DNA of 64,000 bases, taken from contig JAAYKY010000027.1 in NCBI GenBank assembly GCA_012522185.1, positions 1 to 64,000 of the forward strand, given 5' to 3'. A model generated the notes under the pieces. The model searched no databases, was not told where the DNA came from, and saw nothing but the letters and a program-made list of their open reading frames with translations. Positions 14,061 through 26,806 of the stretch are shown here, piece after piece. Positions within the stretch are counted from its first letter, which is position 1; each line of letters begins with the position of its first letter. The stretch comes from Flavobacteriaceae bacterium. GTDB taxonomy: Bacteria; Bacteroidota; Bacteroidia; Flavobacteriales; Weeksellaceae. The translations under genes were made by a program, and so were the position numbers.

Positions 14061-14965
14061 AAAATCTCAGCCTGAGGAAAATTTTCATAAAAACCTTGGC
14101 GCTTTTCACAGTCATCCGAGGCTACAATATTGCCATGCTCATTTTAGCGCAATACATGGCGAGTCTTTTTATCTTCAACGAAGGAAAAAATCACCTCGAA
14201 ATCCTACTCGACAAAAACCTGAACTTCATCATCATCGCATCGGCACTCAGTGCCGCCGCCGGCTACATTATCAATAATTTCTACGATTTAGAAAAAGACG
14301 CCATCAGCCGACCTTTGCAGAATTATATCGAAAGATTTGTCTCACAAAACTTTAAACTGAACGTTTACCTCGCACTCAATATTCTGGCACTCGGCATCGC
14401 CCTTTTGGTTTCTTGGCGAGTCGCCATTTTCTTTCTCGTCTATCAATTTATGGTTTGGTTCTATTCCCATAAAATAAATAAACTCGTCTGGCTCAACAAT
14501 TTGTATTCGGTCATACTGATGGTTTTTCCGTTCTTTGCCCTATTTCTTTATTATGAAAACTTTTCTACCATCATCTTTTTCCACGCCGGATTCCTTTTGC
14601 TCTTACTGCTCGTAACCGATATTTTAAAAGACCTGACCACCTCCACCGCCGACACCATTTACCATTACAGCACTTTACCCGTTATTTATGGCGAAAAAAA
14701 AACCAAACTAATCCTGACCCTTCTGATGATTCTTACCGCAGCTTGGTCGGTTTTTATGTGGACTGACAGCGGGACAGGCTATATGAAATATTTTTTCCTA
14801 TTCAGTGCCGGACTCAATTTATTACTCATTTTCCCGCTCTGGAAATCCCATTCCAAAACCACATACAAGATTCTACACCTGATTTTCAAACTTTTAATCG
14901 GATTTGGCATCTTCAACATGGTGTTCATTGACTTAAATCCCTTAAATTTGCAAAAAATTATCTAA
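14057..14965 (+). CDS. UbiA family prenyltransferase (geranylgeranylglycerol-phosphate geranylgeranyltransferase-like)
   Basis: Multi-TM; NNFYDLEKDAISRPLQ (NDxxDxxxD-like) and DILKDLTTSTAD. ATG at 14057 overlaps upstream stop; 14018 in ORF track is probably too early. Confidence 0.85.
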   Translation: MKNLSLRKIFIKTLALFTVIRGYNIAMLILAQYMASLFIFNEGKNHLEILLDKNLNFIIIASALSAAAGYIINNFYDLEKDAISRPLQNYIERFVSQNFKLNVYLALNILALGIALLVSWRVAIFFLVYQFMVWFYSHKINKLVWLNNLYSVILMVFPFFALFLYYENFSTIIFFHAGFLLLLLLVTDILKDLTTSTADTIYHYSTLPVIYGEKKTKLILTLLMILTAAWSVFMWTDSGTGYMKYFFLFSAGLNLLLIFPLWKSHSKTTYKILHLIFKLLIGFGIFNMVFIDLNPLNLQKII

Positions 14966-14984: not shown

Positions 14985-15135
14985 ATTGGGCGTGCCCCCG
15001 TTGCGATTCTAAAATTCAGACAAAAATAAACTTGACCGCAACGGGGTCGGGCTCTCGGCACTCGCTTTTTTTGGTGCCTTCGGACGAACCTTTGGCAACA
15101 AAAAAGAGCTTAAACAAAGCCTCCATCCCTCACGC
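14985..15135 (-). repeat. Dispersed structured intergenic element, copy A (reverse orientation)
   Basis: Perfect 10-bp inverted repeat CCCCGTTGCG (14996-15005) / CGCAACGGGG (15037-15046) plus a second imperfect stem at about 15064-15109. Shares terminal words (GAGGGATGGAGG, AGCCCGACCCC, GGGGCACGCCCAA) with the 25366 element. Confidence 0.6.
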
Positions 15136-15197: not shown

Positions 15198-16031
15198 ATG
15201 AAAAAAAGACAGGAAAGGCGTGATGCTTCCCCGAAAAGACCGGCGGGAAACTCAAAGCCTAATTTTAGAAATGCCGGCAAACCTTTCAAACCCCGTTTGA
15301 AAAAGGCACCCGTTGATGACGGAACCATTCGTCTCAACAAATACATCGCCAACGCAGGAATTTGTTCCCGACGCGAAGCCGATGAATTCATCCGAACAGG
15401 ACTGGCACAAGTAAACGGAAAAGTCGTAACCGAAATGGGCTACAAAGTACAACCCGGAGATATTGTGAAATTTGACGGCAAAGTCATCACAGCCGAAAAG
15501 AACGTCTACATACTTCTCAACAAACCCAAAGGATTTATCACTACAACACGCGACGAAAGAGACCGAAAAACCGTAATGGACTTGATTGCCAATGCAACCA
15601 CGGCAAGAGTCTTTCCGGTAGGACGACTTGACCGTGCGACCACCGGACTTTTATTGTTCACAAACGATGGTTATTTGACCAAAAAACTAACCCATCCAAG
15701 CCATTCGGTGAAAAAAATATACCACGTCAAGTTGAACAAAAAAGCTACGCATGCCGACTTGGATGAAATCAAAAAAGGCGTTCGCCTGATTCCCGAAGGA
15801 ATTGCCGTAGTGGACAATGTTTCTTTCATTGAAGGCAAACCAAAAGATGAAGTGGGAATCGAAATCCACATTGGCTGGAACCGTGTAGTGAGAAGAATTT
15901 TTGAAAAATTAGGATTTGAAATTGAATCACTGGATCGCGTTGCTTTTGGCGGACTCACCAAGAAAAATCTCAAACGCGGCGACTGGCGCAAATTAGATGA
16001 AAAAGAAGTTGCATTCTTGAAAATGCTTTAA
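15198..16031 (+). CDS. rRNA pseudouridine synthase, RsuA/RluB family
   Basis: S4 domain (RLNKYIANAGICSRREADEFI) and GRLDRATTGLLLFTNDG; basic N-terminal extension. Confidence 0.92.
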   Translation: MKKRQERRDASPKRPAGNSKPNFRNAGKPFKPRLKKAPVDDGTIRLNKYIANAGICSRREADEFIRTGLAQVNGKVVTEMGYKVQPGDIVKFDGKVITAEKNVYILLNKPKGFITTTRDERDRKTVMDLIANATTARVFPVGRLDRATTGLLLFTNDGYLTKKLTHPSHSVKKIYHVKLNKKATHADLDEIKKGVRLIPEGIAVVDNVSFIEGKPKDEVGIEIHIGWNRVVRRIFEKLGFEIESLDRVAFGGLTKKNLKRGDWRKLDEKEVAFLKML

Positions 16032-23693: not shown

Positions 23694-23726
23694 AGCCCTA
23701 ACAGGGTTTGAAACTCTGTTAGGGCT
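23694..23726. repeat. Short palindromic intergenic repeat
   Basis: AGCCCTAACAG GGTTTGAAACT CTGTTAGGGCT: 11 perfect bp per arm, extendable with one G-T wobble. Confidence 0.75.
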
Positions 23727-23908: not shown

Positions 23909-25111
23909 ATGAGAAAAATTGCCATCATCGGCGGAGGTGCTGCCGGATTTTTCACTGCGGCCAATCTTGGAAAAGAACGGGGAAACCAAACGGTTTTGTT
24001 TGAGCAATCTTCAGCGCCTTTGCAGAAGGTCAGGGTTTCGGGTGGCGGAAGGTGCAATGTGACACACGCTTGTTTTGATCCGAAAGAATTGGTCGAATTT
24101 TATCCGCGCGGAAAAAAGGAATTACTGAGTGTTTTTCATAAATTTCAGCCAGGCGATACGATGGGATGGTTTGAAAGCCGAAAAGTTTCGCTGAAAATTG
24201 AGGACGACAACCGGATTTTCCCCATTTCCGATAATTCGATGAGCATCATTGAATGTCTGATGGCAGAAGCCAAAAAAAATCAGGTGGAAATTCGGCTCAA
24301 TGAAAACGTTCAGAAAATCACGCCTACAGAAAACGGTTTTCTGGTTCAATCCAAATCGGGTTCTTACGAATTTGAAAAGGTCATTTTCACACCGGGAAGT
24401 AGCGTGAAATCGATGGAAATTCTAAAGAATTTAGGACATAAGATTGTCAAACCCGTTCCTTCGCTTTTTACGTTCAACATCAAAGATCAACGACTGAAAG
24501 ATCTGATGGGAATAAGCTTTGAATGGGCGGAAATTTCGATTCCCGAATTGAAAATGGAGGCGGAAGGTCCGATGCTCATTACGCATTGGGGATTGAGCGG
24601 TCCGGGAATTCTGCGGCTTTCGGCCTGGGGTGCTCTGGAATTGCATAAATTGAATTATGAATTCGAAATCAAAATCAATTTCATTCAGAAAGACAAGAAT
24701 GAATGCCTAGATTTTCTAAATAAATTCAAATCGGAACATCCAAAAAAATCGGTTTATAAGATCAATCCTTTTTCGTTTCCGAAGCGTTTCTGGCATCGGA
24801 TTCTGGAAGTTTTAAAAGTTCCTGTGGATTTGAATTATTCAAATTTGAATAAAAATCAAATCATGCAAATTTCGATTGAACTGACCGAAGGGATTTACAA
24901 AGTCAAAGGGAAAAGTACTTTTAAGGATGAATTTGTAACGGCTGGCGGTGTGGATTTGCGTGAAATCAACTTCAAAACGATGGAAAGTAAGGTTTTGCCC
25001 AATTTCTATCTGGCCGGAGAAATTCTAAACATTGACGCGATTACAGGCGGATTTAACTTTCAGGCTTGCTGGAGTGAAGGGTTTTTGATTTCGGAAGCTT
25101 TGAAAGGTTAG
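23909..25111 (+). CDS. NAD(P)/FAD-dependent oxidoreductase, HI0933/BaiN-like
   Basis: IIGGGAAGFFTAANLG, VRVSGGGRCNVTHA, LAGEILNIDAITGGFNFQACWSEG. Confidence 0.92.
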   Translation: MRKIAIIGGGAAGFFTAANLGKERGNQTVLFEQSSAPLQKVRVSGGGRCNVTHACFDPKELVEFYPRGKKELLSVFHKFQPGDTMGWFESRKVSLKIEDDNRIFPISDNSMSIIECLMAEAKKNQVEIRLNENVQKITPTENGFLVQSKSGSYEFEKVIFTPGSSVKSMEILKNLGHKIVKPVPSLFTFNIKDQRLKDLMGISFEWAEISIPELKMEAEGPMLITHWGLSGPGILRLSAWGALELHKLNYEFEIKINFIQKDKNECLDFLNKFKSEHPKKSVYKINPFSFPKRFWHRILEVLKVPVDLNYSNLNKNQIMQISIELTEGIYKVKGKSTFKDEFVTAGGVDLREINFKTMESKVLPNFYLAGEILNIDAITGGFNFQACWSEGFLISEALKG

Positions 25112-25113
25112 AG

Positions 25114-25145
25114 GTTTCAGGTTTAAAGTTTCAGGTTTAAAGTTT
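25114..25145. repeat. Tandem repeat of 14-bp unit GTTTCAGGTTTAAA, about 2.3 copies
   Basis: Directly visible: GTTTCAGGTTTAAA GTTTCAGGTTTAAA GTTT. Confidence 0.8.
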
Positions 25146-25365
25146 TTCGGTACGGTCGGAGTTATTCATTTTAAATTTATAATGTGGAACTTTAAATAGC
25201 TAAAACCAATCCCGTCTTAATACTCTGCTTCAGCAGTCCGCCGGGGCGGATAATACTCAAGTCTTCATACTTTTTATAACCACAAAGGACACAAGGTTTT
25301 CACACTAAGGTCACAAAGAGATGTCTTAATACTTGATACTTCAATCTTAATACTTTTTAAATGCG

Positions 25366-25471
25366 CCAGGGATATGGAGGGCAGCGACCGTAGGGAGCTG
25401 GTCTCGGAGCCGAGACGGAACCCCGGAGCAGCCCGGCCGCCGTGCCCGAAAAGCACGGCGGGGCGCCCAAA
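25366..25471 (+). repeat. Dispersed structured intergenic element, copy B (forward orientation)
   Basis: GC-rich island in an AT-rich spacer: CAGGGATATGGAGG, hairpin GTCTCGG/CCGAGAC (25401-25416), AGCCCGG, hairpin CCGCCGTGC/GCACGGCGG (25437-25461), GGGGCGCCCAAA. Confidence 0.6.
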
Positions 25472-25576: not shown

Positions 25577-26806
25577 ATGAGAAGAGTTTATTTAATTGCG
25601 CTCTTGTTGGGATTGGGGACTTCTGCTTTTGCTGGAGGTTACCGTGTGTCTTTTCAAGGCGTCCGTCAGGCGTCAATGGGCTTAACAAGCGTAATGCACG
25701 CCCGTGATGCAAGTATTGCATTTTACAACCCTGCTGGGCTTGCCTTTGTGGAGAGCAAAGTGAGTATTGCAGCAGGTGGGTTTGGCATCATTAACAATGT
25801 GAAGTGGCAAAACACTAACACTTTGGAGTCGGCTGAGACAGATAGCCCATTGGGTACACCGATTTATTTCGCAGCGTCTTATCGACCTGTTGATGCGGTG
25901 ACGGTAGGTGTGAGTTTCACTACGCCGTTTGGGAGTACGGTCAAATGGCCGGAGAATTGGGCCGGAAAGGCAAACATCACAGAGATTTCGATGAAATCTT
26001 ATTTCATCCAACCAACTGTTGCGGTTAAATTTAATGAATGGTTCAGCGCAGGTGCTGGTTTTATCTATGCGATGGGTTCGGTGAATTTGCAAAGAACAAT
26101 GAGCGTGGGTGGGAACGACATCGGTTTGGAAATTGAGGATACTGATGCGCATGGTTTAGGGTTTAATGTCGGTGCTTATTTCCGTCCGACGGATCGTTTA
26201 AACATCGGATTGGCTTATCGTTCGGGGATTGACATGAAAGCGAATTATGGAGATGTGGTTTGGACAGATGTACCTACGGGACTTTCTACCACCATGCCTT
26301 TTTCGACCAATCAATTCAATGCGATGCTTCCTTTGGTTTCGGAATTCTTAGCCGGATTCTCTTATCAGGCATCTTCTAAATTAATGCTTGCCGCTGAGGT
26401 TTCGGTTCATGGTTGGGGTCGATATAGAAATCTGGACATCCAGTTAACTGATACCGATACAGGTGCTATTTATGATTCAAAAGCCAGAAAAAACTTTATC
26501 GACCGCGCGGTTTGGAAACTGGGTGGGGAATATCAAGCCACCGATATGTTGGCAATCCGTTTGGGTTATTATTTCGACGAATTTGTTTCTCCGGGCGAGT
26601 ATTGGTCACCCGAAACACCTGATACTTCCCGTCATTCCATCAACGGTGGTTTAGGACTAAGTTTTGGTGATTTCAATGTGGATGCTTTCGGTCAGTACAC
26701 CATGGGTGTTGAACGTTTTGTGAACAATCTGGAAACAGGATTTACAGGGGACGTTAACCTTTCGGCTGTATCCTTTGGCCTTGGACTTTCTTACAACTTT
26801 AACTAA
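25577..26806 (+). CDS. OmpP1/FadL/TodX family outer membrane transporter
   Basis: GGYRVSFQGVRQASMGLTSVMHARDASIAFYNPAGLAF N-terminus; beta-barrel, aromatic C-terminus (YNFN). Confidence 0.9.
   Translation: MRRVYLIALLLGLGTSAFAGGYRVSFQGVRQASMGLTSVMHARDASIAFYNPAGLAFVESKVSIAAGGFGIINNVKWQNTNTLESAETDSPLGTPIYFAASYRPVDAVTVGVSFTTPFGSTVKWPENWAGKANITEISMKSYFIQPTVAVKFNEWFSAGAGFIYAMGSVNLQRTMSVGGNDIGLEIEDTDAHGLGFNVGAYFRPTDRLNIGLAYRSGIDMKANYGDVVWTDVPTGLSTTMPFSTNQFNAMLPLVSEFLAGFSYQASSKLMLAAEVSVHGWGRYRNLDIQLTDTDTGAIYDSKARKNFIDRAVWKLGGEYQATDMLAIRLGYYFDEFVSPGEYWSPETPDTSRHSINGGLGLSFGDFNVDAFGQYTMGVERFVNNLETGFTGDVNLSAVSFGLGLSYNFN

Follow-up and report, generated by a model that had tools for sequence, protein, structure and literature searches.

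The window, a stretch of 64,000 nucleotides from the genome of a Flavobacteriaceae bacterium (Moheibacter), contains a sharply GC-rich block between two genes, and the question it raises is what kind of element this block represents and how it came to be there. From their translations, we read the two genes as encoding an HI0933-like flavoprotein (ending at 25111) and a FadL-like outer membrane protein (starting at 25577). GC content at the block reaches 0.77 per 60 bases, compared with 39.5% for the window, and a 23-mer taken from it occurred 0 times in 100 shuffles. A sequence-only reading had placed a structured GC-rich element at 25366-25471, and our analysis bears this out. All of the words it named are present, namely CAGGGATATGGAGGGCAGCGACC (25367-25389), GTCTCGG (25401-25407), CCGAGAC (25410-25416), GGAGCAGCCCGG (25425-25436), CCGCCGTGC (25437-25445), GCACGGCGG (25453-25461), and GGGCGCCCAAA (25461-25471). 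The 5' end lies three bases earlier than first noted, at 25363, because the GCGCC found there pairs with GGCGC at 25462-25466.

The element, referred to here as copy B, thus occupies 25363-25471 of the forward strand, starting with GCGCC and ending with GGCGCCCAAA at 25471. Its layout is that of a base stem, P1 (GCGCC at 25363-25367 paired with GGCGC at 25462-25466), that carries two arms, P2 and P3, and is followed by the tail CCCAAA, of which CCAAA (25467-25471) is conserved. The P2 core is marked by the words GGGAT..AG.../...GGANNAGCCC; its 5' side is GGGATATGGAGGG (25369-25381) and its 3' side is CCCGGAGCAGCCCG (25422-25435), which is kept in alignments A1-A3. Within this core, GGG at 25369-25371 pairs with CCC at 25432-25434, and GGG at 25379-25381 pairs with CCC at 25422-25424. 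P2 is capped by a distal hairpin, GTCTCGG-AG-CCGAGAC (25401-25416), and P3 is a hairpin of the form CCGCCGTGC-(7)-GCACGGCGG (25437-25461).

To find relatives, we used R1, a covariance model built from 28 related copies. It recovered copy B (67.3 bits, E 6.7e-12) and also 14985-15135 on the reverse strand (20.2 bits, E 0.031 for the window), which is presumably the copy A that the sequence-only reading had mentioned and left unplaced. That reading had named failure of the two copies to co-align as its refutation, and they do align within one model. An E value of 0.031 is weak on its own and its calibration is rough; the full P1-P2-P3 architecture is present in copy A, which reads GCGTGAGGGAT...AGAGCCCG-P3-CACGCCCAAT, with a P1 of GCGTG/CACGC, a P3 of CCCCGTTGCG/CGCAACGGGG, and the tail CCCAAT. 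It lies antisense to both of its neighbours, a UbiA-like gene (ending at 14965) and an RluB-like pseudouridine synthase gene (starting at 15198), and had been missed by plain word searches for a second copy in the window. The closest genomic copy to copy B is on contig C10, with 84% identity across 78 bases. R1 copies number 2 in the window genome, 3 in G001, 23 in M. sediminis, and 2 in G024, while nothing was found at E≤0.001 in 36 of the 40 genomes searched.

Copy B folds more stably than its dinucleotide shuffles (z of -2.5 as DNA and -2.7 as RNA), and P1, the P2 distal hairpin, and P3 are common to the DNA and RNA folds. At the base of P2, the minimum-energy fold pairs GGGC (25379-25382) with GCCC (25431-25434), unlike the comparative pairing. 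Among 30 copies from Moheibacter and G024 aligned to R1, two-sided changes were seen in 7 of the 11 core pairs and in 34 cells, where 8.2 were expected; the covariation score was 0.338, compared with 0.106 when shuffled (0/500) and at most 0.094 when slid. This alignment leans to R1, and P1 pairing is also favoured by the model with which the M. sediminis copies were found. The P1 words in the alignment (GCGCC, GCGTC, GCACC, GCGAC, GCGGC, GTGCG, GCACG, and GCGTG) each occur with their own complement, and there are at least eight distinct P1 stems in M. sediminis, G001, and G024. In G102, a genome from the same family of bacteria, P1 lay outside the search criterion for copies, and an exact P1 complement is present in 23 of 23 copies with 10 different P1 words (shuffles averaged 6.6 and reached at most 12). 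The arms of P3 covary as well, with a mean stem of 6.1 versus 2.6 when halves are swapped. As pairing is kept while the letters change, structure, rather than sequence, is what is conserved in this element. This agrees with the earlier observation that arm sequences differ between copies with pairing retained, and it extends to a compensatory stem change at an orthologous site. There, one gene, of which 496 residues are shown, is followed in both G001 and M. sediminis by an element 10-13 bases past its stop codon, with flanks that are 80.6% identical. The two elements have a near-identical core, but one stem has changed from CAGC/GCTG to CGGC/GCCG and the distal hairpin has been swapped for another.

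The nearest catalogued family is Flavo-1 RNA (Rfam RF01705), which was reported from Bacteroidetes (Weinberg et al. 2010, PMC2864571). Since 2010 it has stood in the catalogue as a candidate non-coding RNA with no known function, and a 2022 review places it among the more abundant sRNA families (PMC9029176). Comparing copy B directly with Rfam gave no hit. It falls below the gathering threshold of RF01705 (42 bits), with no match at E≤10, and none of 14 related loci matched at E≤1. The connection comes through sister elements in G102, which match Flavo-1 at 47.6 and 45.0 bits and share their end words with copy B. The core words GGGAT..AG and GGANAGCCC flank a hairpin arm in copy B, as seen in comparison with the Flavo-1 matches at L045, L047, L064, and L078, and the common core can be written GGGAT-N-G-N-AG ... 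GGANAGCCC; Flavo-1 is likewise dispersed and intergenic. Many Flavo-1 copies also have a P1 stem, a P3 hairpin, and a CCCAA tail, all of which fall outside the 76-position Rfam model. Unlike Flavo-1, copy B has a GC-rich P2 arm with extra branches, and its layout is also found outside Bacteroidota. Without a Flavo-1 match, the window type is therefore a sister variant, not a member by the RF01705 test. We conclude that the element is a Flavo-1-like variant whose host range is wider, and whose architecture is fuller, than previously recorded, a link that is new relative to the sequence-only reading, and that Rfam's Flavo-1 “sRNA” represents its AT-rich relatives. The number of Flavo-1 copies per genome ranges from 0 to more than 100, with more than 100 in some genomes and none in relatives. 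If the true form of Flavo-1 is the P1-P2-P3 DNA fold, the family would have to be reconsidered, its annotation in many Bacteroidota genomes would mislead, and one could look for the enzyme that recognises this fold.

When 84,980 species genomes were scanned with a sequence pattern, this layout turned up in Bacteroidota, Spirochaetota, Fibrobacterota, and proteobacterial MAGs. The cross-phylum matches have a closed P1, and they carry P3 as well, which the pattern did not ask for; of the 93 matches, about half are chance occurrences in the coding DNA of GC-rich genomes and were excluded as evidence. With GCGCC fixed in the pattern, P1 covariation was assessed not in this set but in G102, M. sediminis, and G024. 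The unpaired or non-palindromic parts of the core, namely GGGAT..AG, GGANNAGCCC, the CCAAA tail, and the pyrimidine ahead of P1, are conserved between phyla. This pyrimidine is found 5' of P1 in 86 of 92 copies, and most copies have CC[A/T]A 3' of P1, so the ends of the element look fixed. Copy number is very uneven between related genomes. Plasmids gave no match to the element, and viral contigs gave none by a narrower pattern.

Family copies are scattered and intergenic, as the sequence-only reading had proposed for the element, and their base stem bears one or two hairpin arms. Their orientation relative to genes showed no significant bias among the copies in G013 and G102, and an early impression of a 3'-end preference, which came from mixed loci, was later not upheld. 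At the fadL locus, G000 and G001 carry elements at the same place with different arms, and in G003 and G004 the intergenic region is short and holds none. The spacer 5' of copy B (25112-25360) holds other degenerate repeats (TTTCAGGTTTAAAG, AACCACAAAGGACACAAGG...CACAAAG, and AATCTTAATACTTGATACTTC) that are missing from G003 and G004. About 10 of the 23 G102 copies have an extra palindrome, P0, 5' of P1 and often 0-6 bases away from it (L314, L317, L318, L322, L324, and L345). The clearest of these palindromes are perfect and span 19-25 bp. Each copy has a P0 sequence of its own; several P0 loops resemble GTTCGCTATCGAAC, and TTTAAACGC-like words recur just upstream. Dispersal, together with presence and absence among congeners, suggests that the element is or has been mobile. 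The sequence-only reading had offered selection on structure or transposition as explanations and a search for empty sites as a check. Conservation of structure stands, and the presence/absence pattern fits gain or loss; as for transposition, no clean empty site with precise ends, target duplication, or moving enzyme was found among the loci and genomes compared.

Whether the fold is one of RNA or of DNA can be approached through the hairpin loops, which in RNA are typically GNRA or UNCG. Among perfect hairpins in 46 window-type copies, 21 of 35 triloops are GNA, whereas shuffles give 9%, flanking hairpins 11%, and the complementary strand 0 of 37. Mini-hairpins of the form cGNAg with a stem of at least 2 bp are almost confined to the forward strand in three sets (30 vs 1, 61 vs 1, and 16 vs 1). 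According to PMC4686876, which cites Hirao and Yoshizawa, DNA mini-hairpins with G-C stems and GNA or GNNA loops are extraordinarily stable. Flavo-1 matches in Flavobacterium psychrophilum lie in sense or antisense with no pattern, and many of them give no transcript (PMC9723704). Because of the one-strand cGNAg loops, the lack of a gene orientation preference, and this transcription pattern, we believe that the element folds as single-stranded DNA and probably acts as DNA rather than RNA. The loop argument suggests this, with such triloops being not impossible in RNA. Strand-specific cGNAg loops also provide a simple sequence test of DNA versus RNA folds in other orphan “RNA” families.

Our preferred reading, to which we assign a probability of roughly 0.55, is that the element is a dispersed, non-coding DNA repeat defined by its structure, read as folded single-stranded DNA and moved or copied in trans. 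It is most likely a non-autonomous element of a mobile type that is recognised in this folded form. Under this proposal, the strand reading GCGCCAGGGAT... would become single-stranded during lagging-strand replication, repair, or DNA uptake, and would then form hairpins whose GNA and GNNA loops are very stable. A postulated enzyme acting in trans would read the fold and move or copy the element, in a manner comparable to Y1 transposases, which handle IS200/IS605 ends and REP sequences. With only the shape being read, arm sequences would be free to drift or be rewritten as long as pairing holds. Some observations weigh against this reading: the P2 and P3 loops of copy B are not GNA triloops, its two strands are equally stable when folded as DNA, vertical conservation at one locus shows that copies can be old and static, and a bias between replication strands, which single-strand movement should produce, was present in G013 (Flavo-1 copies 75:31, about 1 of 2000 shuffles) but was not reproduced in G102 (83:62, not significant). 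The G013 bias flips near GC-skew breakpoints, and its direction roughly matches the sampled GC skew. More tentatively, the family may constitute a widespread and so far undescribed class of mobile elements without genes, which would span Bacteroidota, Spirochaetota, and other phyla, be recognised by a single-stranded DNA fold of GNA-capped hairpins, be moved in trans by an enzyme, and include Flavo-1 as its AT-rich branch.

The strong covariation and good RNA fold could also be those of a structured RNA, either a small RNA or a UTR element for stability or termination, as Rfam files Flavo-1. Under RNA parameters, the forward strand is indeed more stable than the reverse in 35 vs 10 and 19 vs 4 copies, and some copies lie in sense 5-35 bases past a stop codon. 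We nevertheless consider this unlikely, as orientation to genes and the transcription of Flavo-1 in F. psychrophilum are inconsistent, the loops are GNA or GNYA and not mainly GNRA/UNCG, and the G-U versus A-C asymmetry is mixed, with no one-strand G-U excess in both sets. Genomes with more than 100 copies beside relatives with none also argue against an RNA role, as does the location of copy B upstream of a pre-fadL segment that congeners conserve. Similarly improbable is a passive palindrome-rich repeat with no dedicated function, whose arms are perfected by template-switch correction during replication and whose copies are spread by rare recombination. Such a process would suit arms that are wholly different between copies yet perfectly paired, including the long, unique P0 beside some G102 copies, and the en bloc arm replacement at the orthologous site, but correction alone leaves the cross-phylum conservation of the core words, tail, and preceding pyrimidine unexplained. 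The perfect arms could still owe something to palindrome-correcting replication errors, besides selection.

Least probable among these alternatives, in our view, is that a RAYT (TnpA-REP) Y1 transposase mobilises the element as one of the REP type. REP sequences and REPtrons have a similar life style, being short, high-copy, intergenic hairpin elements with no gene of their own, and subclass 2.6 RAYTs in Bacteroidota reportedly have atypical secondary structures on their flanks (PMC6006769). However, our element has two arms on a base stem, no GTAG/CGTC tag system that could be shown, and no flanking RAYT. A Flavo-1 copy was nearby in 1 of 20 Y1 loci (RAYT locus L110), while the other RAYT loci lacked the element, and no cognate Y1 gene flanked by element copies was found in the Y1 loci examined, the whole-genome test being limited. 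Y1 genes are present in some hosts, but a PF01797 (Y1) match is absent from the copy-bearing genomes G004, G006, and G060. Subclass 2.6 RAYTs were rejected as the mover, as the inspected genes are flanked by different palindromes. A motif scan for GIY-YIG genes beside copies was negative.

The folded single-stranded element of our preferred reading can be compared with other known systems. If it is recognised as folded single-stranded DNA, it would work in the manner of IS200/IS605-type ends and derived palindrome-associated elements; it differs from them in having no transposase gene, no demonstrated target motif, and a replication-strand bias in one of two genomes. Integron attC sites also serve as recombination substrates in the form of folded single-stranded DNA; unlike them, the element has no GTTRRRY/RYYYAAC boxes in 25363-25471 by reading, no integrase, and no cassettes. 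By MITE criteria, its ends consist of the 5-bp P1 only, with no target-site duplication seen and no exact empty site to compare.

Several further palindromes and repeats were observed. The subclass-2.6-like RAYT genes at L092, L093, L094, L105, and L106 have palindromes on their flanks, among them CACGGATTGCAAATCCGCGCC and CACGAGCGAGACGCTCGCGC, which are likely their true REP partners. Sub-threshold matches to the Acido-Lenti-1 “RNA” adjoin Y1 transposase genes at L085 (1944-1988) and L088 (1343-1390), and this family may be a transposase-linked DNA hairpin too. Within the window, an intergenic, near-perfect 16-bp inverted repeat at 23694-23726, AGCCCTAACAGGGTTT, is probably a terminator.
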